Shown: one piece after another, positions 6,442-59,884 of the stretch
How positions within the stretch are numbered: position 1 is the stretch's first letter
How the letters are laid out: each line of letters opens with the position of its first letter
NCBI GenBank assembly: GCA_964036295.1
Contig: OZ038462.1
Coordinates: forward strand, 33,190,355-33,254,354
Length of the DNA stretch: 64,000 nt
Direction of reading: 5' to 3'
Origin: Plumapathes pennacea
Taxonomy: Eukaryota; Cnidaria; Anthozoa; Antipatharia; Myriopathidae
Program-made: the position numbers and the translations under genes
The notes under the pieces: generated by a model
Databases searched by the model: none
What the model saw: the letters and a program-made list of their open reading frames with translations, nothing else
Told to the model about the DNA's origin: nothing

Positions 6442-6520
6442 AGCCCTTCCCAAGGCTTAAGGAGACGGGGTTCCCACATTAACTCATTACAATAGTTTCG
6501 TAAAGTAACACACTCCTAGT
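6442..6520. repeat. About 75-bp repeat shared with 31201-31275
   Basis: TAAGCCCTTCCCA through AGTAACACACTC is nearly identical to 31201-31275. It adjoins the end of the 5784-6440 repeat and is probably a terminal piece of another dispersed element. Confidence 0.6.
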
Positions 6521-6524
6521 AAAC

Positions 6525-6931
6525 AAACCTGTTTCTTGTGCTCTTCGAACGGTGGTGAAAAGGATTCGCAGTAAAGTTTTCTGTCGACTTTTCAGTTATA
6601 TCTTTGAAATTTTGCTCCCCTTGACTTTGACAGACAAACGACAAAACTCGCTTGAGCTAAGTTAAACAAACAACTCGGACATACTGGCACAGTCGGTCTG
6701 TATCTTGCTATTATATCCTGAAATCATTTGTGAACAAACATAAGCGAACGCGAGAAACTCGGAACTGACTATGCTTTACTTCAGTTGATAAAACTCATGT
6801 CATGGTCACAGCTGTGTTCTTTCTTTCGTGAGCGAAATGTATTTGCAAATGTTTTTCCGTCCGGAAATGTGGTTCTATGGCTGAAGGGGGAGCAGAATTT
6901 TTAAATACAACCATGAATCAGCAGAAGCCGC
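6525..6931 (-). mobile_element. Diverged reverse-orientation relative of the Helentron-like element X
   Basis: Read on the minus strand, pieces here match interior sequence of element X (33219-35217 and its sister copies): the TTTTCACCACCGTTCGAA block near 6540-6560 and a GGGGGAGCAG block near 6885. The relationship appears to continue into the RTK upstream region (AGAGCCAATTATATTTAGAA at about 6959). Diverged and end-less, so it is probably an old copy. Confidence 0.45.
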
Positions 6932-7787
6932 TCAGCCGCCATTAACACGATGTGCGAGAGCCAATTATATTTAGAAGACCCCTTCCTGGAGAGGAAATTT
7001 TGCATCCGACATTATGTCGCCATGTTATAACATTAGCACGTGAACATTGATTTAACATTCCTCGCATCTTCAAATAGGCATTCTGCTCAGTAAATAGCGG
7101 ACCAGCTGGAGACGTTTGAGAATTAGACTGTCTAGTGAGTTTACGACGTTGCAAAATTGTTCGTCATGTTGGTAACTAGTTATTGAGATAGTATTTAGGG
7201 TAGTCTTAGTAACCAGGTACATATAAGGTTTTCTTTTGAAGGTTTAAGACAGCAAACAAATTATAATGACGCAGTTGATGCATTACAGTGCAGAAATAAC
7301 GGATGTGGTAAGATTTTTGACGTAGTACCTGCGATGTTAGTAACAGCGATGTAATATCTTTGTTAGTAATTGGGGTCATACCTTTAGTAGGCTGATTGTA
7401 ATACAAGAATCAGAGAGAAATAGTCACTTACTCTTTCTTACAAATCCATGACTTTGAGATTGTTTCAAATTAAATTGAAAGTTGTAGTTTATCATGCAGT
7501 ACTTGCGGGCAGCAGTCATTCCGCCAAACTTACCAACGGAGGTATAGTTTTTTCCGAAAGTCATGAAATGATTGAGACCATTAACTGCAGAAATCCCTAA
7601 TCTCCGCCAGTTATGTGTCCTATGCACAGCATGCAAACTTCTGGTGTGATATAGAAACCGCTTCTGTTGATGTTGAAGGTATATTGATCCCGCACAGAAC
7701 ACGACAAAAATGTTTATTCATATACTCTATATAAGCTAACATACAGGTCATTTCGTATAATATTTTGAATGAGCTCCTAGCGAGATT

Positions 7788-7854
7788 ATGATCATGTGGG
7801 CAACTGTCCTTCTAGGTTTTCTTGTGTGGTCTAGTGTCAAGACTATCCAAGCAG
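7788..7854 (+). CDS. RTK exon 1: signal peptide
   Basis: ATG at 7788, hydrophobic core TVLLGFLVW, then SSVKTIQA. The donor GTGAGA follows at 7855, phase 1. This exon is base-for-base identical to 42496-42562. Confidence 0.85.
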
Positions 7855-10800
7855 GTGAGACAAAACTGGTTTGTGTTTCATATGTTACTTACTTGTACGC
7901 GTATGAAACTAAAACAAAAAGCCGTTAGTGGCTGTAGGTCTATCTCTTGATTGCTGTCCAATTACAAACCAGCGAATCTTGAAACAACAAAAGGAATTCA
8001 ATTATACGGACCATTATTGTTTATTACTATTTACCATTACCGTAAGTTGTTTCATTACTATTACTATCAACTATCACTGTTTGTTGTTACTTTCGGTATT
8101 ACCATTACTGTTTATCGTCATGGCGTCCATCCATAGACAGTGTAATCTAGCCAGGTTGTTCCATTTTCACCATGCCTCTCTAGCTTAGCGTACATGTGTC
8201 TCCCTGAATACAGATTTGTTTAAGAGACCAGTGCGCGGCCTGTGACACTGCCCTGAGTATTTGCCAGTCTTAAAATGTTCTGTACGATGAATTCTGCTTC
8301 GTGAATTCAAAAGTAGCGTGAAGAGTCCCTGAAATAAAAAGGAGTCAATACGACCGTAGCCTCATAAAAGTCAAAATAGAAGGCAGAAATCACGAAATAT
8401 TACTATGGGCCAAAATTATATCAGTGACAGTGTCAATATATGCTAGAGAACCGGATTTTTGATAAGAGATATTGTTTGAATGTTCTATTTACGTCACATT
8501 CCTCATTTTCCGCACTGCCGCACTCTGCACGGCACTCTACATTCCTATCCATATCATAGGTATGCATATTTAATTATTCCGGCTATTCTTATTCCGGACT
8601 TCCGAAACAAACACGCCCTTAGTCATTATTGAGTGACTTTGGCCATGTCCGCACGTATCTTTTCCCCTCCATTTTCAAACATTAATTCGTCCACACGATA
8701 GCATTTTGATTCGTTTTTCCCATCGACAATCAAGTCACTATATTTCTCGGGATATCAGAATAATTAATTCGAAACATTGATAATGTCAATAGTGAATTTA
8801 TTGAATGTGTGATGTTCAAGTCGACTCCACATATCAGAAGTTCAAACCCTTGTCACAACAGTGAGAATATTGCGACGCAACACACTAAGCCTCGTTTTGA
8901 AACAGAGGCAGCAGACATATCGGAAATGGCCCATTAGCAGGTATCATGCCCCTGAATAGTTTTTTGACTTACACTCTCTTAGAAATACTTGTCTTTATTC
9001 GGAACTTTTTGCAAATGTATGCTTTTTATGTAGCCCACAAAATTATCCAAATTTTTTTTTGCATTGGCTGATAGTGATACTGATACTGTTTTTAATGGCT
9101 GGCATGTAAAGACTTTATGTTATTTGATGCTGAACTTAGCTACTTTTTCATGTTATTGTGTATTTTGAAGTAATATTTTTCATTACACACACCGCAGGTC
9201 CTGGCAAACCTTCAAATGTGAAAATTTCCAGCATCTCTGCATCTTCTATAAATGTGACATGGGATAAACCGTCTGACGGAGATGGCAGTCCCATTCAGGG
9301 CTGCAACGTCAAATGGTCATGGGGAAACTTTACGTCAGACTATAGGAGATATCGATATCAAAGTTACACTTACCGGAGCTACCGCTATCGGAGTTACCGC
9401 ACAAAATTTGTAAGAAGTGAACAAGCAACATTGCGTGTGAAGCCCTTCACTTTATACAACATCCAGGTTCAGGCAAGGAGCAATGTGACGGGAGATTGGT
9501 CTGAACCAACAATGTTTAAGACAACTGAGTCAGGTATGTATACAAATGTGTACATGCTTACGAAATATCTATTTTAACTCTTAATAAAACTAATCTGCTG
9601 TCAATAGTCCAAACCACTTTTATGCATGTTATGTATATTTATGCTCTTTTAGTTGAACACTGTCACCTCATTCCGCTGTAATGCGATTGTTCACTTGGTG
9701 ATTTTATTTCATTAAGTTACCAGTGGATAATCAAGGTAGCGACTATACAGTACATTTAGCTTTGCACAAGAAATTCGTACAAAGCGCGGGCTTTTGCTAA
9801 AAATGAAACATAAATTTCCAGTCCGTACTGCAACTTATTGTTACTGGCTCTGGGAAATCCAATCATTTTTACACCATCCTTGAGCAAGTTCAATTGGTCA
9901 AATGTAAGGGTCTAGCCCCGCCCTATTCCAGGTCTTTTCTAAAATTGAGTCACGTGATCCAAAATTACCCAAGTGAATGAGATTTTTTATTGAGTACCAT
10001 GAACAATTTCTGTTTTTTTTTTCTTTGTTTTTTCTTTTTTATTACAGCATAATGTTTGCCGATATTCCAAAGTTTGGAAATATTAAAGATATTGGTATGG
10101 GAAAAACTGCTGGATTGCAAATCTTAATATTTCTTACCTGCAAAATTCTGCCACATTTGATGTTTTAAAGCGATGGACCTGAGATTTTTCAATCTACGTA
10201 CATATTGTTTATGATCTTTTCATTTATGGCACTCGAAAACGAATTATTTATTGACATGGTTAATTTGGGTCACGTGACCTATTATTGCAAAAGGCCTATT
10301 TAAGGTCAAGCCAGGGCCCAGTTGCTTAGAAGGATGATCAGGTTAACCCAGGATTAAGACAACCTGATCTACAAAAAAAAATTCAGGATAAACTTTGATG
10401 CAAGCTATTTGAAAAGTTCTTCGAGGGCGCAGATGTATATTTTACCAATTTAGCAAAATTTAACCCAGTAGTATTCGATTGTAGCTTTAGCTATTGCTCG
10501 TGGAGGCCACGCTCCCGCGAGCTTAAAAATGGAATCTTGCAAGGTTTCAGAAGTCGAATTTTCTATACTGTATGACATTTTTCTGGTGAGAAACTGCAAG
10601 TCTTTTTTTGGGAGTCTCGCTCTTGTCCCTTCCATTTTAGATTCTTCTGGTCTCGACCCAGCCCAAGCCACGAGCTTACTGGCAACCCAGTCTTGTTTTA
10701 TAACTTTCTTTTGGGACTATGTAATTGTAACCGGGGGACACTTCCATATATGGGCTATATGGGGATGTGCCGCTCAACAGGGTATACTTTTCGCCTCTCC

Positions 10801-17419: not shown

Positions 17420-20040
17420 TTTTTACCTGAAACTTTACTGATCAATACCTACTATAGGTGTACTTTTATTTATGCATCAATACACTATCAATAGGAACCT
17501 AAGTACACATTATTTACGAGCAAGCATTTGCTTTTAAACAATTGTATTTTTTGGGCAAAGCTATCTGGCAAATTATGACACTTACTCAAGGTCAAATGGT
17601 GGGAAAGACGCGCTCCTGTGATGTCTCGTAACTTTTGCAAGCCATAAAGTTTTCCAGAGGAGCACTCCTTATTAAAAGAAACTACTACGCGTGATACCTG
17701 GAATAGTACGAAGTGGAGTGTTAAGATTTTTGAAGAATGGCAAAAGCTACAAGCTAAGAAAGTGGCCAGGAACGAGTCCGTTAGCTTTCCATATGGTAAT
17801 CTTAAAAAATCTGACGGTCCAAATTACAGGAATGTCAGAAACATCCCTGAAAGTTCTAACAAGTTTGTCGGCGGTTAATGGCAGTTCAGTACAAAATCGA
17901 GTGTAGAGTTTAATTGCAGCAATTGCTCAATGTTCTGTATCGTTCATACAGAATACAAATGGATATGTTCACTAATTTTAAAGCTCTTTTTGAGACTTGT
18001 ATCGGGATACAAGAGCGTGCACGTGACCTGAAAGAGCGTTCATTTTTCTTTATTTTGCTTCAATTGTTCAGCTGAAATGAGACCAGCGACTGGATAAAAA
18101 AGTGTGGGTTTTCTTGTCGAATTAAGTTTGGCTCGTGAGATTATCGGCGTCTGAATTAGTCGTAATTCAGTTTTTGTTTTGTAGTTGAGAGCTGTAATTA
18201 TGAGTTGCTTGATCTCATTTTCTGTGTGTGAAAAACTGACAGTTTTTGTATTTGTTGCTTCAAGAACCTGGTGATAAGAAATGAAATGCAGGATGAGGCG
18301 ACATCTGACATCGGCTATGAGTCATTCGAAAGCTCTGTTCCTGCACCCCTAACAACAGATACTACCCATATTACTCCTACGGTACAGCCAAATGCTCTCG
18401 ACATGCCAGTGCCAGGATATGAAATTCAGGGTGTTGCGACGTCTGACCTTGGTTATGAGTCACTCAAAAGCTCAGCACGTGCATCCCAAAGAGAAAATAT
18501 TCCTTTCATTCCTGCGGTACCACCTATTGACATGCAGGTGTTAGGATATGACATCCAGGGTGGGGTGACGTCCGAAGTTGTCGATGAGCTACCTCGAAGA
18601 TCATCACCTGCACCCCTTGTAGTAACAACAGATAATACTCCTTCCACTCCTGCGGTACCTCCGGGTGTTGTCGCGCCTTCAGATAAAACCCCTTCATCTT
18701 TTCCGGGAAGTCACTATGCTCCCCTTGTACCACGTACCCGAAACTGGGAAGTGAAAAGGACGAATGTTAATGTCGTCAAAATTATTGGTAAAGGAGCCTT
18801 CGGGCAAGTGAGCAAAGCAACCGTTTCTGGTGTCAGTGGTGTCACAGGAGAAATCACTGCAGCCGTGAAAATGTTGAAAGGTGGGCGTTTGTTTAAGATT
18901 TGATGTGGTGTGTTGTGGTTTCGTGTGATTTGGGACGATAAATCCACGAAATTGCCCGGTATTTTGACTCTCCAGTGCTCTTCTTTAGTTTAATCGATGA
19001 CAAATAACTAATCGTTTAATTACTCTATTCACTCCAGAAAATGCCCGAAAAACTGACAGAAAGGATCTTCTCTCTGAACTGGAGCTGATGAAGTCACTCA
19101 AGCCGCACCCTCACGTCATCACGCTGTTAGGATGCGTTACAGAGTCAGGTAAAGTACGCATTTTTATATTTTAATCATATCATAGAAAAGCTGTCAAAAC
19201 TAAATTAAAAACCAAACAATGAAATTAATAATACTTATTAGGTACAGTGTTTGCTGTAGCGTCCGTATTGATATGAACCTCGAGGGTAGCAAAAAGGGTA
19301 AAATTATTCGTTAAAGGCAGCGCCTCAATGCGTTTATATTTGTGGTTACAGAATATTTTTACAGTATTTACAGTTGTTTTACGAGTTTCTTTTATATAGG
19401 TGCAATTGTTTGTTGTGCAAAGATACTTTTAAGTGACGTCAACGCACTATAAGACAGTCCTCGCTCAAATTGTGTAAATGATGCTGTAGTAAATATACTC
19501 TAAATTAAACAACACAAAATGAATCCTTCTTGTGTCACAAGAACCCCTGATGGTGATCGTTGAATATGTCCCGTATGGAGACCTTCTTGGTTATCTGAGG
19601 AAAAGTCGTGGTATGAACGACAACTATTACAATGACCCAGACATCAAACCAGAGACAAGTCTGACATCGGAGCAACTGATCAAGATGGCATGGCAAGTCG
19701 CAGATGGCATGACTTATCTTTCTTCTAAGAAGGTAACTTATGACCGACTTAGGCCCTGTTTATATGACTTATGACTTAGAGAAAGTTCACTGTTGTTTTG
19801 TTTTAGTCACGAGCTTTGCGACAGCATATCCTACACCATGTTTTGTCCTGTCTGTCATTGAGACCTCTGAGACTTGTGACACTCTCCACCTTCTATCTCT
19901 TAGATTGTTCACCGCGACTTGGCGGCCAGAAATGTATTGGTAGGTGAAGGAGAGAAATGCAAGGTGACCGATTTTGGAATGGCAAGAGATGTGCACACAC
20001 AGGAAAATTACATCATGAAAAGCCGGGTAAGTTGATTGTA

Positions 20041-27979: not shown

Positions 27980-30837
27980 CTAGAAATACGATAATCGCAG
28001 ATATCCCCTCACTCCGTCCTGCACTGGCATATATTAGAAGTTTCGACGCAAAAAAATAAACATAGAAGTAATGTGTCTATTTTATACGACCTTTGATGTA
28101 ACCAGCTTGTTGTAGTTGATGGGGCAAGCGTATTAAAATAACGTTTTACTACTTGTACTATACCAAGTGCTGAACACTTAAAGGAGAAAAAGAGTGGTCT
28201 GAAATATAGTAACTTTGTGTTACTAAGCTCTGACCCAATAAGAAAACAACATATATATCAGCATCAATTTTTCAAAATACATTATATAAAATAGACTACG
28301 TAGTGAGAAGTGACAGTTTAGTCAGCATTCACTTAACCAAAAAGGTACAAAAAGCTATATATTCTCTATACTGTACAATACAGTACACTTTCAAATGAAG
28401 GAGAAAATTGAATTTGATCACTCTTAGGTGTGAAAGGGTTTAAACTTGTTGTTACCTCTAACAAATAAGTAAATAACAAAACCTTGTGTCAAAAAGGTAC
28501 ACAGAAAAATACTTGGTTCTGAGCATGTCATCCACTTGAGCACAGTGCAGTACCATTCCAAATTTTAAGAAAACATACAGATATCCCGAAGTTTTTTTTT
28601 GTGGCGTACTCAACAGAATATACAGAATATACAGGCCAATGTTTTTGAGAACCTTTTCCTTTGGCATTCTTGTTGGACCAGACAATCGGGTTGTACACGT
28701 CAGCATTGAGTTCATTTTTGGCTCCTGACAATCTTACACTTTCATGATGTCAGTGACTTGGTATATGAGGATCCCTCAACAGCACAGGAGTTGGCTTCTC
28801 AGCATGATTCCTTCACTTTAACATTTCCTTTAGCATGATCTTTGGAGATGAAAACACATGTTCTGGTTTTTGTCTTCGGTACATATTGTTGCTAATTTAT
28901 TATACAGTACTTGCCTATAAACAACAAAGAAATTGAACTTCCACTTGGACTGAAGTGTAAGTTTAGCCAAGGAACCTCTTTCTTTGCTCCTACAAAAATC
29001 AGAAAAGGCACCAAGTCTTAAGTGGATTAATAAGATAATTCACATGATGTACACAATACAATGCACTTTTATAGCTAACCTGTACTATTCATCCACAATT
29101 GACATAAATCTTGGAAGGATGCTGCAAAGGATCTGGCGCACTGTAAATAAATACTTGTTGTCCTGATAATAGAGGCCAATTCTTTCCTCAAAACACTGCT
29201 ATAAATGTTTTTGGTTATCCCCGAGCGTAATATCAAGTGTACATGGCATAAAAACAAATGCACATCATCATATGGACAGCTAAAGAAACTTCACTGCATA
29301 GATCAAATAAATCACTGTAAATTAATTAGGCACTGATACTGTAGTAAAAATTGGCAAATATTCTAAAAAGCACAAACTACAGCTTTTGCAATATGGTAAA
29401 TCAAAGTACAAACACATGTGTACAGTAGTGTGTTCTCTTCGATCCTTGTGTATAAAATGCAGCAAAGAATAACAAAACACAATCAGTGGTCTGATTAAGC
29501 AGGAATTCAAATTAAACAAAATTTTCACCGTGCATTCTTTGTTTAACTGTTCTTCATTGAAAAGAAACAATGACAAAGAATGGCCGAATTGCAATTAATG
29601 CGTAATTGTGCAAATTTGGCCATCAATACACAGCGAGGTCAAAAATATAAATACAACTATAAAAGCCATACAGAATAGTTTTCAATTCTTACCTGCCCCT
29701 TGCTTCCTGATGATAAGAACGGGCAGATCACTCACATTGGCTGGAAGAGTGCTGAGAAATCCCTGAACATCCTGCAGCAAGTTGAGGACATGACCTTTGT
29801 ACCCACGCTGGCCGCCGTGTTTTTGGTAAACACACATGATTGGGAAAGCTCTGGCGATCAGCATTTCCTCTACTTCGGTGAGGTCCTGTAGTTCTGCAGG
29901 GAATGTCCCAGGATCCATGTCGTTTTCAGCTGAGAACAATCGACACGAGGTCTTTTTGTCGCGTTTGCACTTGGTGCAGGTATAGTTCAGCTCGGGCACA
30001 CTTTGGTTGGTGATCAGCCATGTTTCTCTGCATACCTTGCAGTGTAAGTGTCGGAGATTTTCCTCAAAGCTGTGAAAGGCAGTGAGTTCTTCCCGCACCC
30101 ATTCTTGTTCGTGGAATGGAGGAATTTCTGGATTTACCCACCCACGGTTATGCAAATATTGTTGTTTTTGGCTGCGACGTTCTTCGATAACTGCAGCACG
30201 CTGTTGTCGGCGTCGAGTGTTGGCTTCATTTTGAGCTTGAAGCCTGCGGGTACTCCGTTCAGACGATTCAGTCATTGCCACGTCGAGAAGATACTCGCTG
30301 GCGATTGGATTCTCTTTGCGGAGTTGTTTGCGTTTTCCGCTTCGGTTCACGTCGCTTTCTTTGCGGAGTCGTTTCTTCGGCACGATTCTTTTTATGATGC
30401 TGTCGATCATAACAGGATTGTCGCCTTTTCTAGAGACGAATTTGGCGTTGTTCGCTCGTTTCACGATTTCGCCTTGCTCGTGTCTGTTCCCTTCTCATTT
30501 GAAAACGAGCTTCGCGAGACTGTTGTGTTTCAAGTTTTTCAGTTAAGTTTTCCATTTTCGTGAACGTAGCTACGATATATTGTTGCTTCGTTCAAATCTA
30601 AATGTTTCGTTCAAGTCTAATTTCTCTGTTAATCCGAGTAAAACAACAGGGCACACGTGATCGATCCGGCCTTTGTTATTGGTTAGCGGGGTAACCGCGC
30701 CTAAAGTCGTACGCCAGACAGACTGACAGACGGACGAACGTTAAATTTCGAGATGGCGACAGGCTTGGAGTCCCCAAGTAGACGGTATAATATTACTGCA
30801 TTAGTGTCGTGAGTATTTCCCTCACTTCGTTCGGGGA
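27980..30837 (-). mobile_element. Helitron HelC (2.86 kb, TC...CTAG, inserted between A and T)
   Basis: On the minus strand it begins TCCCCGAACGAAGTGAGGG at 30837 and ends TATTTCTAG at 27980. The host bases are A on the left (27979) and T on the right (30838), the hallmark of canonical Helitrons. The interrupted family-Y sequence is continuous in copy 1 at about 4470-4480. It carries a damaged first exon with a DUF6570-like region, followed by about 1.7 kb with no recognisable helicase. Confidence 0.85.
29693..30555 (-). pseudogene. Helitron polyprotein exon 1 with zinc-finger and DUF6570-like region, frameshifted
   Basis: The frame starts MENLTEKLETQQSREARF and has the same Arg-rich repeats as its relatives. 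It meets a stop where related copies read on (about 30430), and must shift frame again near 30280 to continue into TESSERSTRRLQAQNEAN. Downstream are a CxxC-x(n)-CxxC pair (LHCKVCRETW, YTCTKCKRDKK) and a block typical of Helitron DUF6570 (LTEVEEMLIARAFPIM, QRGYKGHVLNL, LPVLIIRK). It ends at a good donor (GCAG then GTAAGA). No Rep HUH motif or SF1 helicase is found before the 3' end at 27980, so this copy is not autonomous. Confidence 0.8.
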
Positions 30838-41645: not shown

Positions 41646-42495
41646 TCAGCCGCCATTAACACGATGTGCGAGAGCCAATTATATTTAGAAGACCCCTCCT
41701 GGAGAGGAAATTTTGCATCCGACATTCTGCCGCCATGTTATAACATTAGTACGTGAACATTAATTTAACATTCCTCGCATCTTCAAATAGGCATTCAGCT
41801 CAGTAAATAGCGGACCAGCTGGAGACGTTTGAGATTAGACTGTCTGGTGACTTTACGACGTTGCAAAATTGTTCGTCATGTTGGGAACTAGTTATTGAGA
41901 TAGTATTTAGGGTAGTCTTAGTAACCAGGTACATATAAGGTTTTCTTTTGAAGGTTTAAGACAGCAAACAAATTATAATGACGCAGTTGATGCATTACAG
42001 TGCAGAAATAACGGATGTGGTAAGATTTTTGACGTAGTAACTGCGATGTTAGTAACAGCAATGTAATATCTTTGTTAGTAATTGGGGTCATACCTTTAGT
42101 AGGCTGATTGTAATACAAGAATCAGAGAGAAATAGTCACTTACTCTTTCTTAAAAATCAATTACTTTAAGATTGTTTCAAATTAAATTGAAGGTTGTAGT
42201 TTATCAGTGCTTGCGGGCAGCAGTCATTCCGCCAAACTTACTAACGGAAGCATAGTTTTTCCCGAAAGTCATAAAATGATTGGGACCATTAACTACAGAA
42301 ATCCCTAATCTCCGCCAGTTATGTGTCCTGTGCACAGCATGCAAACTTCTGGTGTGATATAGAAACCGCTTCTGTTGATGTTGAAGGTATATTGATCTCG
42401 CACAGAACACGACAAAAATGTTTATTCATATACTCTATATAAGCTAACATACAGGTCATTTCGTGTAATATTTTGAATGAGCTCCTAGCGAGATT

Positions 42496-42562
42496 ATGAT
42501 CATGTGGGCAACTGTCCTTCTAGGTTTTCTTGTGTGGTCTAGTGTCAAGACTATCCAAGCAG
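42496..42562 (+). CDS. Signal-peptide exon, second copy
   Basis: Identical to RTK exon 1 (7788-7854), including the donor GTGAGA, phase 1. The next phase-1 acceptor with an open frame on the plus strand is the pentraxin exon at 53844, so exon 1 could be spliced to it to encode a secreted pentraxin-domain protein. That join is inference. Confidence 0.65.
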
Positions 42563-44067
42563 GTGAGACAAAACTGGTTTGTGTTTCATATGTTACTTAC
42601 TTGTACGCGTATGAAACTAAAACAAAAAGCCGTTAGTGGCTGTAGGTCTATCTCTTGATTGCTGTCCAATTACAAACCAGCGAATCTTGAAACAACAAAA
42701 GGAATTCAATTATACGGACCATTATTGTTTATTACTATTTACCATTACCGTAAGTTGTTTCATTACTATTACTATCAACTATCACTGTTTGTTGTTACTT
42801 TTGGTATTACCATTACTGTTTATCGTCATGGCGTCCATCCATAGACAGTGTAATCTAGCCAGGTTGTTCCATTTTCACCATGCCTCTCTAGCTTAGCGTA
42901 CATGTGTCTCCCTGAATATAGATTTGTTTAAGAGACCAGTACGCGGCCTGTGACACTGCCCTGAGTATTTGCCAGTCTTAAAATGTTCTGCACGATGAAT
43001 ACTGTTTCGTGTATTCAAAAGGAGCCTGAAGAGTCCCTGAAATAAAAAGGAGTCAATACGACCGTAGTCTCATAAAAGTCAAAATAGAAGGCAGAAATCA
43101 CGAAATATTACTATGGGCCAAAATTATATCAGTTATATCAGTGTCAATATATGCTAGAGAACCGGATTTTTGATAAGAGATATTGTTTGAATGTTCTATT
43201 TACGTCACACTCCTCATTTTCCGCACTACCGCACTCTGCCTGGCACTCTACATTCCTATCCATACCATAGGTATGCATATTTAATTATTCCGGCTATTCT
43301 TATTTCGGACTTCCGAAACGAACAACGCGTTCTCAACTAAAATCAATCTTTTTTTTTTCATTTAGGAAGAATCCACTGCAAATAGATTATTAAGGTCAAA
43401 ATTGGGATTCAGTTCCACAAGCAGTGTCTGATTCTGAAGTCAAAGGCGACATCGAAAACTAGAAATACGATAATCGCAGATACCCCTCACTCTGCCATTG
43501 ATGGGACTTTTACTTTGGTACTCCCAACAAGAGTAGCCTTTGTTTTACCGAAATGTTGACTCAATCTTTTATTCGAAGTCAAGTACTACACGCAAAGGAA
43601 GGGAGAAAAAGAATGGTGTGTGTTATACTTTTGCGTTGAAAAAAGAGTCGATTGCGTGACGAAGTACGTATTTCCCACGGTCGGCACGTCAAATTAATTC
43701 ATACAGTCTGCCAAGCACGTTCTCAAAATTTAATACCCAAATTTTGAAGTTGGTCGGCCGTCGTAGTACGGGAAAAAAGGAACGCTGATTTTCCTACTTT
43801 GAATTCATAGGCAGTACAATTAAATAGGTTTCCTGTGCGATTTGTTTTTACTCTGGACTGCATGCTCCAGACTCAGGCATAAATATTTAACGAGCTCAAA
43901 TTGTTTTGTATGTGAACCCGCTCAAACAGCATGATTTCTCCCAGAATCAAAGCAAAACTTGAACGGTTTACTTCAAATTATACACGGGCTTCAGACCTAA
44001 TGATACTTCTAAGGGCTTGTGAACGATTCTTCTGCAATCACCGCATGTCAGATTACAGCATTTGTTA

Positions 44068-44226
44068 AGCCTGGTCCTCACTAGCGCATAAACATAAGCA
44101 TAAGGATAAGAATAAGAGAGCGACAGTGGCGACATAAGCATAAGCATAAGGATCAAACACATCCGTTCCTTTGCTCTCTTATTCTTACGCTTATGCTTAT
44201 GCTTATGCGCTAGTGAGGACCAGGCT
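44068..44226. mobile_element. PIF/Harbinger-like MITE with TTA target duplication, nested in HelB
   Basis: The ends AGCCTGGTCCTCACTAGCGC and its exact complement; the interior is rich in CATAAG/CTTATG. TTA lies at 44065-44067 and 44227-44229; the sister Helitron at 55490-55510 reads TTTGTTACAG with no insert. TWA duplications are typical of PIF/Harbinger. Confidence 0.85.
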
Positions 44227-44457
44227 TTACAGTTTTTGTTTTGACAGAAAAATAAGACATCTGACTAAATCATTCAAGACTCCAAGTTCCGATTGCTCTG
44301 AGCGAATACGGTAGCCGAAACTGGCGACAGAAGCGTATTAAAACAATACTTCGAGGGAAAATGATCAACATACAGATTCTAATACATTCTTGCAGTGATC
44401 GAGTTACAAGATACGGGTAGAATATATTTGTCACGGCGATTGTTCGATTTCCACTGA

Positions 44458-44748
44458 CTAACCTTTGTTGCTTGTCCTTTCTGAATAAGTATCTGAGTTT
44501 AACACAAACGGCGTCTGAAGCTCCCGATTTGCTTTCAAGCGCTGTTCCCTTTGCGGAGCCGTTTCTTCGGCACGATCCCGTTCATGATGCTGTCGGTTAT
44601 AACATGTTTGTCGTCTTTTCTCTAGACGTATTTGGCGCTGTTCGCGAATTGTTTCACGATTTCGCCTTGCCCGTGCCTGTTCCCTTCTCTTTTGAAGACG
44701 AGCTTCGCGAGACCGTTCTGTTCCAAGTTTTCTAGTCTTCAAATTCAT
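44458..44748 (-). pseudogene. Helitron polyprotein N-terminal fragment (HelB)
   Basis: MNLKTRKLGTERSREARLQ with the same Arg/Gln-rich repeats as 26366-26833. It breaks off after about 95 residues and has no catalytic domain. Confidence 0.6.
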
Positions 44749-45239
44749 TTTCGTGAACGCAGTTCAATTGTTGCTTCGTTCAAATCTTTCTTAAAAACAC
44801 TGGCGGAGACGTTAATCTATAATCGACAGTGATTACGTAATTGCCTTATTAGGACATTGCCTTAGGCACCTGGCCTAAAAGGTCGCATCGCACACACCCA
44901 CACACGAACATTAGATTTCGAGATGGCGACAGGCTTGGAGTATTCAAATTAATGCATTGGAGTCGTGATTATTTCCCTCACTTCGTTCGGGGATTAATTC
45001 CACCAAAAGCAAACAATAATACTTTTCTTTGTAGAAACATTATCTTTATTGCACATGTTTCAGGTAATTTAACAGCACAAAGGTATTAATTTCTCATCTC
45101 AAAAAATGTAAAATATGGTGAACATGCTTTTCAATGGTAATTTCACTACCTGAAATTACCGATTTTCAGAGTTATTAACGTTTTCGGCCCATTTGGCTAT
45201 GTAAAATCGTAGCACTCTAGCGAAGCATCAATTCTTCAC

Positions 45240-46322
45240 CACCAAAAACCAACTTTTCAAAACTGACAAAAACGGTTCTAATCAGAAAGTAAGTTCAAAG
45301 ATCTTTGACTCCACAGTGCGGCATCAGCACTTCACAAAAACGGTTCAAATCAGAAAGTAAGTTCAAAGATCTTTGACTCCACAGGCGGCATCAGCACATC
45401 ACAAAAACGGTTCAAATCAGAAAGTAAGTTCAAAGATCTTTGACTCCACAGTGCGGCATCAGCACTTCACAAAAACGGTTCAAATCAGAAAGTAAGTTCA
45501 AAGATCTTTGACTCCGCAATGCGGCATCAGCACTTCACAAAAACGGTTCAAATCAGAAAGTAAGTTCAAAGATCTTTGAATCCACAGTGCGGCATCAGCA
45601 CATCACAAAAACGGTTCAAATCAGAAAGTAAGTTCAAAGATCTTTGAATCCACAATGCGGCATCAGCACTTCACAAAAACGGTTCAAATCAGAAAGTAAG
45701 TTCAAAGATCTTTGACTCCGCAATGCGGCATCAGCACTTCAAAAAAACGGTTCAAATCAGAACGTAAGTTCAAAGATCTTTGAATCCACAGTGCGGCATC
45801 AGCACATCACAAAAACGGTTCAAATCAGAAAGTAAGTTCAAAGATCTTTGAATCCACAATGCGGCATCAGCACTTCACAAAAACGGTTCAAATCAGAAAG
45901 TAAGTTCAAAGATCTTTGACTCCGCAATGCGGCATCAGCACTTCACAAAAACGGTTCAAATCAGAACGTAAGTTCAAAGATCTTTGAATCCACAGTGCGG
46001 CATCAGCACATCACAAAAACGGTTCAAATCAGAAAGTAAGTTCAAAGATCTTTGAATCCACAATGCGGCATCAGCACTTCACAAAAACGGTTCAAATCAG
46101 AAAGTAAGTTCAAAGATCTTTGACTCCGCAATGCGGCATCAGCACTTCAAAAAAACGGTTCAAATCAGAACGTAAGTTCAACTGACTCCGCAGTGCGGCA
46201 TCAGCACTTTAGAAAAACGGGTCAAATCAGAGAGTAAGTTCAAAGATCTTTGACTCCACAGTGTGGCATCAGCACTTCATAAAAACGGTTCAAATCAGAA
46301 AGTACGTTCAAAGATCAAAGTC
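45240..46322 (+). repeat. 68-bp tandem array, left arm of the fold-back element (about 15 units)
   Basis: The unit contains the perfect palindrome TCAAAGATCTTTGA and the stem-forming AGTGC...GCACT around GGCATCA, separated by GACTCCACAG. The innermost units carry distinctive variants (one lacks AAGATCTTTG; one has AGAAAAACGGGTC) that are mirrored in the right arm. Confidence 0.93.
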
Positions 46323-47837
46323 CAAATGTTGGGTCTGAAATTTAGACAAGAGTTTTACTCCAGGGTAGTATAAGTTGATCTTAAATGTTGTTTCTGAATT
46401 TCAAAACCATGATTTTTAATCCTGTAGATACTTAATATAGTTTATCTTGGAGGAATCTTGATTCCTCCAAGATCAACCTAACTCGGTCTGAAATTCAGAC
46501 AAAAGAATTTTCACTTAGTACTCTATAAAGTTAATCTTGCAGAAATTAAGTCCAAATGTTGAGCTGTTTTTGTAAAGCAGACCTGAGCCGCGAAGTGGTG
46601 AGCCAAAAACTTGCGTACTAAGATATCCAAACACCGGGATCAAAAGTTGTCGGAGGTTAAGATTTTAAACTTCCAATAGAAGTAATCAGCAGGATTTTAG
46701 CTTCCAGCTGTCCTTAAGGCTGTACTGGAACTATATGAGGGGCAACATTGAAGTCAGGGTTTGAGTAGGTCTATGTCGCTTCCAACCTACAAAATGACAA
46801 AAAAGGAAACTAAACAAGGTATCGCAAACATTCCAAGTATCCGTGAACAGAGAACTTGGCTTTCGAGAATTTTGTTTCATTCTTCAAGAATAGCTGCGAG
46901 AATCTATTTGATGATAAAGTGTACAGTCTACACACTCGGTTATTCTCGCCAGCCTGTCCGATAAATTCATATTTATACAACAATTACCTCCACTTAAAAC
47001 CCAGCTGCATGAGCAGAAATTATATGCCGACAATTTGGCCTAGAGCTTGTGACAAAAATGGAGACCCGAAGAAAAAATAACGAAAGTTCAACATTCCTGT
47101 ATGTTTCTCTCCTGATTGCGTACGCGCAAAGGCATTCGACGACAAATTTATGTTTCTGTCCTTGCATATTGTTGTCGGTCAAAAGAGGCGTGTTAGACAA
47201 AAGAGCCGCACAGATTGCTTGGATCCCGGTTTCTAAGGCATCACGTTAGCGGGGACAAAATTCTGACTGAATTTGAAAAACAGAAGACGTTTACTTTGTG
47301 GTGTTGTGGGTCGAATGCTTTGTGTGATAACTGTCACAAGATGCCGCGGCATTCTTCCAAGTGACAAAACCTACGGCGGCTTCCGGTTTTATTTTTCAGC
47401 GCAGCGGCGAGAAATCAAAGACAATTTTGCAGCAGTGCAGAAAAACTACACTTCATTAGTTTGTGACACCGCTCTTTTTTTTTTTTTTTTTTTTTTTTAA
47501 TAAAACTACCCGGCAAACAGGACGCCTTCGACAGCGGGAAGTGGGAAGTGACAAAACCCGCTGGGCCCGTCCCTGGGTCGACCTTTGCACAAAGATAATT
47601 CTAAGGCGCTATCACTAACAAAGTGAGCTGAACGAACACACGAAGATCCTGGTGGAAAAATGGCCTTCAGTATTAGTTCTGCTTTGCTGCAAATCTCGCC
47701 GCAGCGCCGGAGGAAAGAAAAAAAAACAAAACAAAACAAAAACCAGGAACATCAGAACATCAGAACAAAAGGGCCGGAAGCCACAGCAGTTTTGGCACAT
47801 GCCAATCAACCCACGAAGCAAAGGTCTTTTCATTTTT
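46323..47837. other. Inner left arm and loop of the fold-back element
   Basis: 46323-46560 carries CTGAAATTCAGAC and CTTGATTCCTCCAAGATC blocks that recur inverted at 49500-49985. 47000-47270 pairs with 49055-49290. 47280-47837 is loop sequence with a T-tract (47475-47498); short frames exist but no recognisable protein. Confidence 0.55.
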
Positions 47838-49051
47838 GAAGCTATTTGCAATATGCAAATAGCTTCTATGTCGGCGTTTGGGCGATAGTTGAATCGCCGT
47901 TCGGCCCATCTCATTAGGTCATTAAAATGCTCCCCCTCTAGGTGGCAAAAACTACTGAGGGGGGAGGAGCATGAAGTGTTATCCATATAAAAGCCGCCGT
48001 GGTACAGGTCCTGTTAGAAAGTTTGTCTTTTATTATCTACTTAACACAAAGAATGCACAGAGAGATTTCCAGTAAAGGGTTTCCGTGCTAATGTTATAAC
48101 TTTGCGACAGAAGTTTGTCTTTTATTATCTACTTAACACAAAGAATGCACAGAGAGATTTCCAGTAAAGGGTTTCCGTGCTAATGTTATAACTTTGCGAC
48201 AGAATGTCAGAAGCTAAATTACCTCTCCAGGGAGGGGTTTTCTAAATATAATTGGCTCTCTCGCACGTGGAAATTCAAAGCATTATTTAATGGCGGCTGT
48301 GAGTGTTGCCGATTCTTTGGTTGCATGTGGAAATCTGCTCCCCCTTCAGGCCCCGGCTGACACATCCGTAGTATCTGGCAAACAGGCGACACAGATTCAC
48401 ATTTAGAGCGACATTTCTGGACACATTTGCGAATATACGCTCCGCTCACAAAAGAAGGAACACAGCTGTATGGTGTGACCATGACATGTTTTGGCAAAGG
48501 TAAAAGCTTATTCCGAGTTTTTTTGCGTTCGCTGATATGTTTGTTGACACATGATTTCATGCCATAATTGCAAATGCAGATCGCTGTGGTATGTCTGAGT
48601 TGTTTGTTTATAAAATTGTCTCGAGCGGATTCTGTCACTAATGAAAAATCGACAGGAAATTTTACTGTGAATCCTTTTCACCATCGTTCGAATAGCACGA
48701 GAAACAGGTTTGTTCGGCTGGAGTGTGTTACGTAACACGAAACTACTATAACGAGTCAAAGTCTGGCTTACCTCGCAGAAATTTTTACAGAACGACTTGA
48801 AATATTTTGGCAAGCTATACTTTCCTCCTTTTATGTCGATCAGCTCAAAATAATCATATGATAAGCTTTCATGTTTGTACATTTGTGTTTGGTCATGCAT
48901 AGTACGTAGCTGGCATAGTAGAACATAGTGTAAACCCCGATCAAACGGTGATAATATTCGATAATAGTTCGTGCCCCGTTGTAACACGAACTACCTATCA
49001 TAGACTATCATCAACTAGCAAATAGCTTCACGTACGCTTTGCGGACCTATG
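47838..49051 (-). mobile_element. Helentron-like element X2
   Basis: The same ends as X1 and X3 (GAAGCTATTTGC...GCAAATAGCTTC hairpin; GTACGCTTTGCGGACCTATG end), flanked by CATTTTT and TTTAAATT. A 92-bp interior segment is tandemly duplicated (48022-48205). One of two tandem interior units seen in X1 and X3 is single here. Confidence 0.7.
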
Positions 49052-50204
49052 TTTAAATTGAGTCGGAACTTTGCCACTGCTAACGTGATGCCGGGTAATC
49101 GTAGCCAAGAAAAAGACTCCACTACAGCCCATCTGTCTGGCCGTTAATATGCCCAACGCACCTCTTTCGACTGTGCAATCATAAGTCTAAGAAGAAACGC
49201 GTGGTATGTTCCGTTTCATTGTTTGTCTCCGAGTCTCCATTTATGTCACAAGCCGGTAGTTCAGCTACCGCCGAATCGCCGACATGTAATTCTGCTCAGT
49301 GCATCGTCTATTCAGCCTATAAAACTTGTAAACGGCAGTAATTTCAGTGCACCATTGTATATTTATTGGTCAGACGAACGTTAACTACTGTATGTAGATT
49401 TCTTTGCCATTCTAGAAGAAAAATGTTTTCGTGATATGTTTGCAATGCCTCAATTACATGAGTTTCTTTTTGATCGTTGAAGCCCACCTTCGACGTGTTA
49501 TTCAATGTGTTTCTTCTGCTCCAAGTTTAATTTTATTCCAGCATTAGGTACTAGGAGTAGAAACTTGTGTCTGAATTGTTTTTGAACTTGATTTCTCCCT
49601 CGGCTTCGCCTCGCCAACCCTACCCGACCTCGCAGCGCGGAGCTTCCGAGAGCCGGATAACCTCGGCGAACTGGTTAAGGCTAATTCCTCGAAGATTAAC
49701 TTTATTAGCTACAGTACCAGGGATATAAAAAAACTTGTGTTTGAATTTCAGACCCAACATTTGGACTTGATTCCTCCAAGATTAATTTTATTAGGTACCA
49801 GGAGTGGACTTAATTCCTCCAAAATTAACTTTATCAGGTACCAGGGGTAAAAAATCTTGTGTCTGAATCACAGACCCAACATTGCCTCCTCCAAGATTTA
49901 CTTTTTATTAGATACCAGGAGTAGAATCTTATGTCTGAATTTCAGACTCAACATTTGCTTTGAACTCCTCCAAAATTAGCATAATTATAATTTGTGTTCA
50001 AGTTATCGGGAGAAATAAATTATTCCTAAATTCTGGCAAATTTATTTTTTCTCCACTGAAATTCGCTGGACATTACTTATGACTAAAAGTGCTCTTTTTA
50101 ATTCCGCAGGAAACAAGGAATGTTTATAAAGCTATAAAAAGGATTTGCCAGAAATGAACGAAATGCCCCATTTTAGCGAAAAAAAACTCTAGAACTTATT
50201 TTAG
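49052..50204. other. Inner right arm of the fold-back element
   Basis: Contains three or more direct units with ATTCCTCCAAGATTAACTT and TACCAGGAGTAG (49680-49985), opposite in orientation to 46323-46560. An A/T-rich stretch (about 49985-50204) has no mirror in the left arm, and a GC-rich patch at 49600-49670 may be a further small insert. Confidence 0.5.
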
Positions 50205-50876
50205 TGTTTTTGTGAGGTGCTGATGCCGCACTGTGGAGTCAAAGATCTTTGAACGTACTTTCTGATTTGAACCGTTTTTATGAAGTGCTGATGCCACACT
50301 GTGGAGTCAAAGATCTTTGAACTTACTCTCTGATTTGACCCGTTTTTCTAAAGTGCTGATGCCGCACTGCGGAGTCAGTTGAACTTACGTTCTGATTTGA
50401 ACCGTTTTTTTGAAGTGCTGATGCCGCATTGCGGAGTCAAAGATCTTTGAACTTACTTTCTGATTTGAACCGTTTTTGTGAAGTGCTGATGCCGCATTGT
50501 GGATTCAAAGATCTTTGAACTTACTTTCTGATTTGAACCGTTTTTGTGATGTGCTGATGCCGCACTGTGGATTCAAAGATCTTTGAACTTACTTTCTGAT
50601 TTGAACCGTTTTTGTGAAGTGCTGATGCCGCATTGCGGAGTCAAAGATCTTTGAACTTACTTTCTGATTTGAACCGTTTTTGTGAAGTGCTGATGCCGCA
50701 CTGTGGAGTCAAAGATCTTTGAACTTACTTTCTGATTTGAACCGTTTTTGTGATGTGCTGATGCCGCACTGTGGATTCAAAGATCTTTGAACTTACTTTC
50801 TGATTTGAACCGTTTTTGTGAGGTGCTGATGCCGCACTGCGGAGTCGAAGATCTTAGAGCTTACTTTCTGATCAGA
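50205..50876 (-). repeat. 68-bp tandem array, right arm of the fold-back element (about 9-10 units)
   Basis: Reverse complement of the unit at 45240-46322. Array length differs between arms, but the innermost variant order is the same. Confidence 0.93.
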
Positions 50877-51250
50877 ATAATTGAATTTGGTGCAGTGCAG
50901 ATTCGATTGCAATTTTTTACTCTCAATTTCTCTGTTCTTGTGAATTGTCCATTCCGCACTGTGGAGTCGAGAATTCTAATTTCCGACTCTGATTTTGCAT
51001 GCTTGAGTGAACTTGTATATTCCACACTTCAGAGTCAATTTCAGGAAAAATAAATATTGTTCCACAAAAATGTGTTTATTTACTTGCTTGTAAATTTTAC
51101 TCCACAAAAAATAACTAAAATTGATTTTCCATCAGAGAGAATGTTAAAAATACCTAAAAATACCTAAATCTTGTGGAATTTTCCTAAATGAGAAAAACTG
51201 ATTTTAGTTGAGAACGCGTTGAACACGCTCTTAGTCATTATTGAGTGACT

Positions 51251-51444
51251 TTGGCCATGTTCGCACTTATCTTTTCTCCTCCGTTTTCAAACATTAATTC
51301 GTCCACACGATAGCATTTTGATTCGTTTTTCTCATCGACAATCCGTTTTGGAAAGTGCCGTTTTCATCATTTACGTATGGCGGAAGCCGCACCCAAAGGA
51401 AAAAATCCGTTTCAAACAAAAACGGATACATGTGGACATGTCCA
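51251..51444. mobile_element. MITE Z (intact copy)
   Basis: The ends TTGGCCATGTTCGCACTTATC and, inverted, TGGACATGTCCACATGTATC bound 194 bp. It is truncated in copy 1 of the duplication (8640-8727). Confidence 0.65.
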
Positions 51445-51811
51445 CCATTCATGTATCATGCATACATGTATTCTTTATTTGGATAGTTCACTAACGATCG
51501 CCAGACAGTACATACATTCTCGATTTTTGAGAATCTGAATATAAAACAACATAATTGGCGAACAAACAGAAGTCACTAAATTTCTCGGAATATCAGAATA
51601 ATTCATTCGAAACACTGACAATGTGTGATGTTCAAGTCGACTTCACATATCAGAAGTTCAAACCCTTGTCACAACAGTGAGAATATTGCGACACAACACG
51701 CTAGACCTCGTTTTGAAACAGAGGCAGCAGGCAAATCACGTATCATGCCCCTAAATAGTTTTTTGGCGAGCAAATAGAGTTTGAAAGCCTTGTCATTTCA
51801 GGTTCGATGGC

Positions 51812-51964
51812 AATATTGGAGTTACCGCCATACAAAATTTGTAGCAAGTGAACAAGCAGCATTACGTGTGAAACCTTTTACTTCATACAATATCCAGGTT
51901 CAGACAAAGAGCAATGTGACAGGAGATTGGTCTGAACCAACATATTTTAAGACATCTGAGTCAG
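51812..51964 (+). pseudogene. FN3 exon fragment (paralogue of RTK exon 2)
   Basis: Encodes the last half of the domain (FVASEQAALRVKPFTSYN, then GDWSEPTYFKTSE) in an intact frame with a phase-1 GTATGT donor at 51965. The 5' half is missing. The only nearby acceptor (ending 51801) would enter in phase 0, which does not fit exon 1 (phase 1); joining them gives a stop. It is therefore probably a dead or skipped exon. The protein is close to RTK exon 2 but clearly more diverged than the flanking 5' region. Confidence 0.7.
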
Positions 51965-51990
51965 GTATGTATACAAATGTGTACATGCTT

Positions 51991-54888: not shown

Positions 54889-55719
54889 CTAAGAAATACG
54901 ATAATCGCATATACCCCTCGCTCTGCCATTGATGGGACTTTTACTTTGGTACTCCCAACAAGAGTAGCCTTTGCTTTACCGAAATGTTGACTCAATCTTT
55001 TCTTCGAAGTCAAGTGCTACACGCAAAGGAAGGAGAAAAAGAATGGTGTGTGTCATACTTTTGCGTTGAAAAAAGAGTCGATTGCGTGACGAAATACGTA
55101 TTTCCCATGGTCGGCACATCAAATTAATTCATACAGTCTGCCAAGCACGTTCTCAAAATTTAATACTCAAATTCTGAAGTTGGTCGGCCGTCGTAGTACG
55201 GGAAAAAAGGAACACTGATTTTCCAATTTTGAATTCATAGGCAGTACAATTAAATAGGTTTCCTGTGCGATTTGTTTTTACTCTGGATTGCATGCTCCAG
55301 ACTCAGGCATGCATATTTAACGAGCTCAAATTGTTTTGTATGTGAACCTGCTCAAAACAGCATGATTTCTCCCAGAATCAAAACAAAACTTGAACGGTTT
55401 ACTTCAAATTATACACGGGCTTCAGACCTAGTCATACTTCTAAGGGCTTGTGAACGATTCTCGCTGCAATCACCGCATGTCAGATTACAGCATTTGTTAC
55501 AGTTTTAGTCTTGATAGAAAAATAAGACATCTGACTAAATTATTCAAGTTCCGATTGCTCTGAGCGAATACGGTAGCCGAAACTGGCCACAGAAGCGTAT
55601 TAAAACAATACTTCGAAGAAAAATGATCAGCATACAGATTTTAATACATTCTTGAAGTGATCGAGTTACAAGATACGGGTAGAATATATTTGTCACGGTG
55701 ATTGTTCGATTTCCACTGA

Positions 55720-56004: not shown

Positions 56005-56010
56005 ATTTTT

Positions 56011-57352
56011 GAAGCTATTTGCAATATGCAAATAGCTTCTATGTCGGCGTTTGGGCGATAGTTGAATCGCCGTTCGGCCCATCTCATTAGGTCATTAAAA
56101 TGCTCCCCCTCTAGGTGGCAAAAACTACTGAGGGGGGAGGAGCATGAAGTGTTATCCATATAAAAGCCGCCGTGGTACAGGTCCTGTGAGAAAGTTTGTC
56201 TTTTATTATCTACTTAACACAAAGAATGCACAGAGAGATTTCCAGTAAAGGGTTTCCGTGCTAATGTTATAACTTTGCAACAGAATGTCAGAAGCTAAAT
56301 TACCTCTCCAGGGAGGGGTTTTCTAAATATAATTGGCTCTCTCGCACATGGAAATTCAAGGCATTATTTAATGGCGGCTGTGAGTGTTGCCGATTCTTTG
56401 GTTGCATGTGGAAATCTGCTCCCCCTTCAGGCCCCGGCTGACACATCCGTAGTATCTGGCAAACAGGCGACACAGATTCACATTTAGAGCGACATTTCTG
56501 GACACATTTGCGAATATACGCTCCGCTCACAAAAGAAGGAACACAGCTGTATGGTGTGACCATGACATATGTTTTGGCAAAGGTAAAAGCTTATTCCGAG
56601 TTTTTTTGCGTTCGCTGATATATTTGTTGACACACGATTTCATGCCATAATTGCAAATGCAGATCGCTGTGTTATGTCTGAGTTGTTTGTTTATAAAATT
56701 GTCTCGAGCGGATTCTGTCACTAATGAAAAATCGACAGGAAATTTTACTGTGAATCCTTTTCACCATCGTTCGAATAGCACGAGAAGCAGGTTTGTTCGG
56801 CTGGAGTGTGTTACGTTACGAAACTATTATAACGAGTCAAAATCTGGTTTACCTCGCATGATATGTTTGTTGACACATGATTTCATGACCAGATCGACTG
56901 TGGTTTGTCTGAGTTGTTTGTTTACAAAAATTGTCTCTAGAGGGGGTTTTGTCGCTAATGAAAAATCGACTGAAAAGTCGACAGGAAATTTTACTGTGAA
57001 TCTATTTCACCACCGTTCGAAGAGCACGAGAAAGAGGTTTGTTTGGCTGGAGTGTGTTACGTTAATACGAAACTACTATAACGAGTCAAAGGATGGCTTA
57101 CCTCGCAGAAATTTTTACAGAACGACTTGAAATATTTTGGCAAGCTATACTTTCCTCCTTTTATGTCGATCAGCTCAAAATAATCATATAATAAACTGTC
57201 ATGTTTGTGCATTTGTGTTTGGTCATGCATAGTACGTAGCTGGCATAGTAGATAATAGTCGATAATAGTTCGTGCCCCGTTGTAACACGAACTACCTATC
57301 ATAGACTATCATCAACTAGCAAATAGCTTCACGTACGCTTTGCGGACCTATG
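56011..57352 (-). mobile_element. Helentron-like element X3
   Basis: The same ends as X1 and X2. Flanks are CATTTTT on the left and TTTGTGAACG on the right; the uninterrupted Helitron (44742-44760) reads CATTTTCGTGAACG. Two tandem interior units beginning TGTTTGTTGACACA are present, as in X1. Confidence 0.75.
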
Positions 57353-57475
57353 TTTGTGAACGCAGTTACGTACAATTGTTGCTTCGTTCAAACCTTTTTT
57401 TGACCTCGCTTTGACGCTAATCGATAATTATTATTACGTCACTGCCTTAGGCACCTGGCCTAAAAGGTCGTGCCT

Positions 57476-58383: not shown

Positions 58384-59884
58384 CTAGAAATACGATAATC
58401 GCATATACCCCCTCACTCTGCCATTGATGGGACTTTTACTTTGGTAACTCCCAACAAGAGTAGCCTTTGTTTTACCGAAATGTTGACTCAATCTTTTCTT
58501 CGAACTCAAGTGCTACACGCAAAGGAAGGAGAAAAAGAATGGTGTGTGTTATACTTTTGCGTTGAAAAAAGAATCGATTGCGTGACGAAGTACGTATTTC
58601 CCACGGTCGGCACGTCAAATTAATTCATACAGTCTGCCAAGCACGTTCTCGAAATTTAATACTCAAAGTTTGAAGTTGGTCGGCCGTCGTAGTACGGGAA
58701 AAAAGGAACACTGATTTTCCAATTTTGAATTCATAGGCAGTACAATTAAATAGGCTTCCTGTGCGATTTGTTTTTACTACTGCATGCACCAGACTCAGGC
58801 ATGCATATTTAATAGGCTCGAATTGTTTTGTATGTGAACCCACTCAAAACAGCAAGATTTCTCCCAGAATCAAAACAAAACTTGAACAGTTTACTTCAAA
58901 TTATACACGGGCTTCAGACCCAGTAATACTTCTAAGGGCTTGTGAACGATTCTCGCTGCAATCACCGCGTGCCAGATTACAGAAAAATAAGACATCTGAC
59001 TAAATCATTCAAGACTCCAAGTTCCGATTGTTCTGAGCGAATACGGTAGCCGAAACTAGCGACAGAAGCGTAGTAAAACAATACTTCGAGGGAAAATGAT
59101 CAGCATACAGATTTTAATACATTCTTGAAGTGATCGAGTTACAAGCTATACGGGATAGAATATATTTGTCACGGTGATTGTTCGATTTCCACTGACTAAC
59201 CTTTGTTGCTTGTCCTTTCTAAATAAGTATCTGAGTTTAACACAAAACGGCGTCTGAAGCTCCCGATTTGCTTTCAAGCAATGTTCCCTTTGCGGAGTTG
59301 TCTGTGTTACCCGCTTCTGTTGATGTCGCTTTTGGTCGGCATTCATGCGCTGTTGTCTTTGCGGAGTCTTCTCTTCGGCCCGCTTTTTCTCCTGAAGTTT
59401 CCGATTTGCGTTCAAGCGAGCGAACAACAGCGCATGAATGCCGATCGAAAGCGACATGAACAGAAGCGGGTAACGCAGACAACTCCGCAAAGAGAACAGC
59501 GTTTCACGATTTCGCCTTGCTCGTGCCTGTCCCTTTCTCATTTGAAGACGAGCTTCGCGAGACTGTTGTGTTTCAAGTTTTTCAGTTAAGTTTTCCATTT
59601 TCGTCAACGCAGCTACAATATATTGTTGCTTCGTTCAAATCTAATTTCTCTAAGTTATTCCGAGTAAAACAACAGGGCACACGTGATCGATCCGACCTTT
59701 GTTATTGGTTAGCGGGGTAACCGCGCCTAACGTCGTACGCCAGACAGACAGACTGACTGACAGACAACGTTAAATTTCAAGATGGCGACAGGCTTGGAGT
59801 CCCCAAGTAGGCGGTATAACACAAGTAGGCGGTATAATATTACTGCAGTAGTGTCGTGAGTATTTCCCTCACTTCGTTCGGGGA
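58384..59884 (-). mobile_element. Helitron HelF (1.5 kb, TC...CTAG, A|T insertion)
   Basis: CTAG at 58384-58387 after host A; TCCCCGAACGAAGTGAGGG (minus) ends at 59884 before host T. It has the same left half as HelB and HelD and the 5' variant of HelC (GACAGACTGACTGACAG). A short GGCGGTATAA segment is tandemly duplicated at 59810-59840. Confidence 0.85.
59146..59607 (-). pseudogene. Helitron N-terminal frame with an internal inversion (HelF)
   Basis: MTKMENLTEKLETQQSREAR starts as expected, but residues about 37-60 (LFSLRSCLRYPLLFMSL) are an inverted copy of the later repeat NADQKRHQQKRVTQTTPQRE. The DNA at 59279-59355 and 59425-59500 is therefore a 76-bp inverted repeat. The frame stays open across the inversion by chance. 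Confidence 0.65.

Follow-up and report, generated by a model that had tools for sequence, protein, structure and literature searches.

Whether the depth at which a mobile element lies within a nest of others tells when it arrived there is the question raised by the locus described here. The window, by which we mean the whole 64,000-nucleotide stretch that was analysed (C1:33190355-33254354), comes from the 290-Mb genome of Plumapathes pennacea, assembled in 24 contigs. It contains a miniature inverted-repeat transposable element (MITE) inside a Helitron, HelB, which lies inside a fold-back element, which in turn interrupts one copy of a duplicated receptor-like gene. In practice, transposon insertions are put in order by how deeply they are nested; the REANNOTATE paper says that the nesting level reflects the temporal order, and uses nesting around datable long terminal repeat elements to bound ages (PMC2672092). 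The first-pass annotation of the window had read the locus in the same way, giving duplication, fold-back, Helitron and MITE as four successive events. The innermost layer of the nest breaks the rule at this locus, and the same genome supplies both the filled and the empty sites that expose the break, making this a clean teaching and test case.

We propose that ordinary mobile elements landed one inside another in the apparent intron 1 of a recently duplicated receptor-like gene. The empty sites show that copy 2 of the duplication, and not copy 1, contains a fold-back element whose arms are minisatellites and whose target duplication is 4 bp long. They also show a non-autonomous canonical Helitron at an A|T site of the left fold-back arm and, in the T run of the core, a Helentron/HINE-like element, both missing from the other fold-back copies read. 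The MITE was already present in the Helitron lineage and was carried along by Helitron copying. To this whole reading, in which nested ordinary elements are documented by empty sites and the MITE is a passenger, we give a probability of roughly 0.93. The nest is made up of ordinary families and involves no new mechanism; nesting depth simply misleads on order here. Coordinates were checked by self-comparison of the window, by sequence reading and by re-reading every junction letter, and the layers were compared with other copies across the genome, the evidence for each nested layer being empty sites or filled copies elsewhere in the assembly.

The MITE and its Helitron host

HelB occupies 43459-44993 and is read on the minus strand, where it starts with 5'-TC (TCCCC...) at 44993 and finishes with CTAG-3' at 43459, in agreement with the 5'-TC/CTRR-3' pattern. 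Its site is uninterrupted, GAAAA|TTAATTCC, in all 14 other fold-back left arms that were read, and because both sides join gaplessly in these 14 empty sites, HelB must have inserted between A and T without duplication, as had been annotated. In its ends, its A|T site and its lack of a target duplication it resembles canonical non-autonomous Helitrons, whose ends are given as 5'-TC and 3'-CTAG, with insertion between A and T and no target duplication, in PMC4067079. Helitrons have a 3' hairpin about 11 bp from the end; that of HelB is short, with a stem of 4 bp at 8 nt from the end, and is no stronger than those of shuffled sequences (z -0.58, with 48 of 200 shuffles folding equally well). Also unlike canonical Helitrons, one subfamily carries a fixed MITE. 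The CTAG-side end has at least 3,000 matches in the genome at up to two mismatches (1508 + 1492).

The MITE lies at 44068-44226 on the plus strand, with inverted ends AGCCTGGT and, as first annotated, a TTA duplication confirmed on both sides. PIF/Harbinger MITEs are defined by a three-base TWA duplication and terminal inverted repeats, both of which are present here, and from the TTA duplication we take the element to be PIF/Harbinger-like. A MITE-free Helitron had been proposed at about 55490-55510, and that copy indeed holds a single TTA at 55497-55499. The second Helitron offered for comparison, at 58384, likewise has no MITE, but a deletion there took the site itself, and it therefore provides no clean empty site.

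The arrangement seen in HelB recurs throughout the genome. We examined the 40 best matches to the Helitron left half (window copy included), which are near relatives of HelB and hence give a biased proportion. The MITE lies within three bases in 29 of them, judged by adjacent coordinates; ten of the remaining eleven were read, four being MITE-bearing (one with a further insert) and six MITE-free, and the eleventh is the MITE-free copy at 55 kb in the window, giving 33 with the MITE and seven without. Many of the MITE-bearing Helitrons lie on other contigs, and the 33 hold the MITE at the same base and in the same orientation. Genome-wide counts of exact junctions, which do not depend on the choice of these 40, found 34 filled Helitron-MITE junctions at one base position (window included) versus 385 empty ones, both counts missing copies with altered junctions; the junction patterns read backwards gave no match. 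Seen from the side of the MITE, 38 of its 40 best matches (window copy included) are at this one Helitron site, unlike PIF/Harbinger MITEs, with which the element shares the three-base duplication and the inverted ends. The 38 comprise 29 established by adjacent coordinates, one by a single reading and eight of ten in a check reading, the other two lying elsewhere. With 395 occurrences of the MITE end genome-wide, the family has members elsewhere as well.

In a tree of 23 Helitrons a single split (ultrafast bootstrap 99) separates 14 MITE-bearing from nine MITE-lacking copies, the two groups having different majority bases at 15 positions. Branch lengths put the depth of the MITE-bearing group at about 1.3-1.5% and that of the branch leading to HelB itself at 0.4%. 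The order originally given, in which the MITE came last and entered a HelB already housed in the fold-back, has in its favor the innermost position of the MITE and its clean TTA duplication. We consider it very improbable in view of the MITE standing at the same base and in the same orientation in 33 of the 40 best Helitron matches, the 34 exact filled junctions genome-wide and the marker substitutions that accompany it. Because the junction site is shared, the tree splits on the MITE and marker positions differ accordingly, the MITE predates the arrival of HelB at the locus. The sequence comparisons thus indicate a MITE that entered an ancestral Helitron and reached the nest as a passenger of Helitron copying. 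Measured against the 0.9% branch of the fold-back, it may have entered the Helitron before the fold-back around it was in place, though the counts are small and the intervals overlap. A search of literature titles and abstracts returned none on a Helitron subfamily with a fixed internal MITE, and we make no claim that such a case is unpublished.

Several further features of these Helitrons were recorded. In one fetched sequence (L005, 7-3032) two Helitrons stand head to tail without a gap, the first lacking the MITE together with the stretch around its site and the second carrying it, and in another (L058) nesting goes one level deeper, the MITE inside the Helitron itself holding several hundred inserted bases. 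HelB-type ends are over-represented in the 26-60 kb part of the window: the window has four of them, where an even spread of 3,000 would predict 0.66. An open reading frame (ORF) at 29682-30494, overlapping a related Helitron stretch, matches DUF6570 (E 7.6e-19), a domain that we assume to be linked to Helitron proteins.

The fold-back element and its empty site

The fold-back element spans 43324-51220 on the plus strand and constitutes an insert of 7.9 kb in copy 2 of the duplication. Its ends AACGCGTTCTCAACTAAAATCA are inverted, with AACGCGTT found at both, in inverted orientation and with 22 identical bases. The junction letters bear out the GAAC target duplication previously noted, at 43320-43323 on the left and 51221-51224 on the right. 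The fold-back-free counterpart proposed in copy 1 (8607-8618) is also uninterrupted when the copies are aligned; it contains a single four-base AAAC versus GAAC in copy 2, a difference of one substitution.

A genome search with the element ends, allowing up to two mismatches, returned 35 matches, which resolve into 14 paired complete copies (the window element being one of them), one unpaired end and six matches with two mismatches; the end pattern read backwards matched once in the genome. The flanks of each of these 14 show a perfect 4-bp target duplication in 11 cases, the window copy included. Each arm of the window element contains a 68-bp minisatellite, with 15.6 units on the left (45266-46316, plus strand) and 9.9 units on the right (50206-50872, minus strand), inverted relative to the left array. 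Between them lies the core, in a left part (46320-47837) and a right part (49055-50205).

Minisatellites such as those in the arms are badly handled by assemblers, and on this ground the entire nest might be suspected of being an assembly artefact. This explanation has very little to recommend it here: no insertion junction falls within a minisatellite, and the arrays, which vary greatly in length among the fold-back copies, are of sizes within the range seen in the others. Misassembly is unlikely because the junctions have counterparts, empty or filled, at other places in the genome.

Long inverted repeats with internal tandem repeats and a target duplication of fixed length are both class features of fold-back elements, and both are found here. 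Mutator elements generate target duplications of 8-10 bp, and the 4-bp duplication here does not fit a Mutator-type fold-back. Like the Tetris and Galileo fold-backs, as described in PMC4079207, the window element has long inverted arms made of tandem repeats. That text gives Tetris a target duplication of 8-10 bp and units of about 220, unlike the 4-bp duplication and 68-bp units of the window element. The fold-back presumably moves by cut-and-paste, and each element of the nest would have been moved by a transposase.

One 15.3-kb fold-back copy elsewhere in the genome (L097 and L038, C4:23715363-23730645) has a TCTA duplication and is a possible autonomous or gene-carrying member of the family. 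Selected ORFs of the fold-back relatives (L038, L039, and L097 with L038) were scanned against Pfam and gave no transposase and nothing above the cut-off; weak matches, far under the cut-offs, were dropped.

The Helentron-like element and the order of the layers

While the four layers first described all stand, that account of the nest was incomplete, having overlooked a 1.2-kb Helentron/HINE-like element in the T run of the fold-back core (47838-49051, plus strand; 47833-49054 with the flanking Ts, the boundaries being uncertain within the run). The element is missing from all 12 other fold-back copies that have the core, where CATTTTTAAATTG is uninterrupted and TTTTT forms the empty site. 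It starts with the palindrome GAAGCTATTTGCAATATGCAAATAGCTTC and has GCAAATAGCTTC near its other end; in the window copies GAAGCTATTTGC and GCAAATAGCTTC form subterminal inverted repeats, the left one having an extra base in one copy. Both ends are common to the three window copies, and the left start with its T run is common to these three and to seven of 11 fetched copies, the seven being those in the correct orientation for reading the flank. The palindromic subterminal inverted repeats, the 5' one near the end, the T-rich target and a tandem repeat in the window copy are all features of HINE/Helentron (DINE-1-like) elements. Unlike the HINEs of mites, in which the 3' repeat lies 38-60 bp from the end (PMC4067079), the repeat here lies about 25 bp from it. 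The tandem repeat is an exact 92-bp duplication (48019-48204, plus strand), and overlapping matches suggest that other copies may carry one 92-bp unit. The 5' end occurs at 221 places in the genome at up to two mismatches, and the one ORF scanned, of 160 aa, had no Pfam match.

Divergence provides a second line of evidence on order. Alignment of the 6900-9600 region with copy 2 confirmed the duplication: 6932-8613 and 41646-43324 are 96.9% identical, and with the copy 2 flanks joined across the fold-back there are 50 mismatches in 1,809 alignment columns, or, halved, a divergence of about 0.014 (~1.4%) per copy. The terminal branch of the fold-back is 0.0089 (at most 0.9%; 28 private changes in 3,401 columns), that of the Helentron-like element 0.0056 (at most 0.56%; six private changes in 1,130 columns) and that of HelB 0.0040 (at most 0.40%). 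These values, from which we infer the dates of the layers, fit a duplication followed by the fold-back and then by the Helentron-like element and the MITE-bearing Helitron; the intervals overlap, and HelB and the Helentron-like element may have arrived in either order. Empty sites and concordant divergence in the sequence thus support the proposed succession of duplication, fold-back and Helitron, this much of the original order being retained, whereas the 34 shared junctions and the tree split remove the MITE from its last place.

The fold-back might instead have been present in the ancestral gene before the duplication and have been lost from copy 1 by clean excision. DNA transposons can excise, and the copy 1 site is clean. 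That site has no footprint and no second four-base site, however, and the private divergence of the fold-back (0.9%) is lower than the per-copy divergence of the duplication (1.4%), although the intervals overlap; we regard excision as improbable and favor insertion into copy 2 after the duplication.

Some observations count against the reading of the nest proposed here. Matching 4-bp flanks are missing in three of the 14 complete fold-backs, although two of these three have the same flanks as each other and so probably go back to a single event that a duplication then copied. Counts of private changes are small, and the intervals derived from them overlap. Of the nine MITE-lacking tree copies, two (those at 26 kb and 58 kb in the window) have a deletion that affects the MITE site and are not clean empty sites, and the tree itself comprises 23 copies, mostly near relatives of HelB. 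In ten MITE-bearing copies the mean distance between MITEs (2.2%) exceeds that between their Helitrons (1.2%), the two correlating moderately (r 0.55); this is weaker than strict one-rate co-inheritance would give; the MITE is just 159 bases long and repetitive. The tree has no outgroup and, being unrooted, also fits a single precise loss of the MITE. Such a loss would give the same split, and even so the MITE did not arrive at the nest locus.

A bolder interpretation would make the fold-back an undescribed superfamily with 4-bp duplications, whose 15.3-kb copy has genes of its own that match nothing in Pfam, and at the same time make the MITE-bearing Helitron a composite in which one class is amplified by the copying of another, the MITE insertion being possibly older than the fold-back. 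We think this combination unlikely, if less so than the alternatives considered above.

Helentron-like elements are also found elsewhere in the window and genome. A second copy (56006-57355) interrupts a MITE-free Helitron, and the two families are thus nested again within the window. Helentron-like ends likewise exceed the prediction of an even spread in the 26-60 kb part of the window (two, against 0.05). Along 11.4-12.1 Mb of another contig (G000:C3), such ends are spaced 60-220 kb apart on one strand, a pattern that would suit repetition of a large unit.

The duplicated host gene

The nest had been placed in a duplication upstream of a receptor tyrosine kinase (RTK) gene. The duplication is upheld, copy 2 to the left of the fold-back (41646-43323, plus strand) pairing with 6932-8612 in copy 1, while the upstream position probably needs revision and the name of the gene was not confirmed. 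A signal-peptide exon of 22 residues, read by eye on the plus strand (42496-42562), is identical to the copy 1 exon at 7788-7854, and the donor GTGAGA follows both. Downstream of the insertion, an FN3-like exon (51802-51964, plus strand) has an open frame and splice sites assigned by eye, with a weak fn3 match (E 0.014) under the Pfam cut-off. Since the signal-peptide exon precedes the insertion and the FN3-like exon follows it, intron 1 of copy 2 of a receptor-like gene, rather than upstream sequence, is the probable site of the nest. A kinase-like ORF at 18232-18903 has no Pfam match, and neither a kinase domain nor the RTK name was confirmed by it. The left breakpoint of the duplication (6476-7040 and 41646-41753) falls in a remnant similar to the Helentron-like element, with about 66% identity over 6476-7040 and 86% over 41660-41753.

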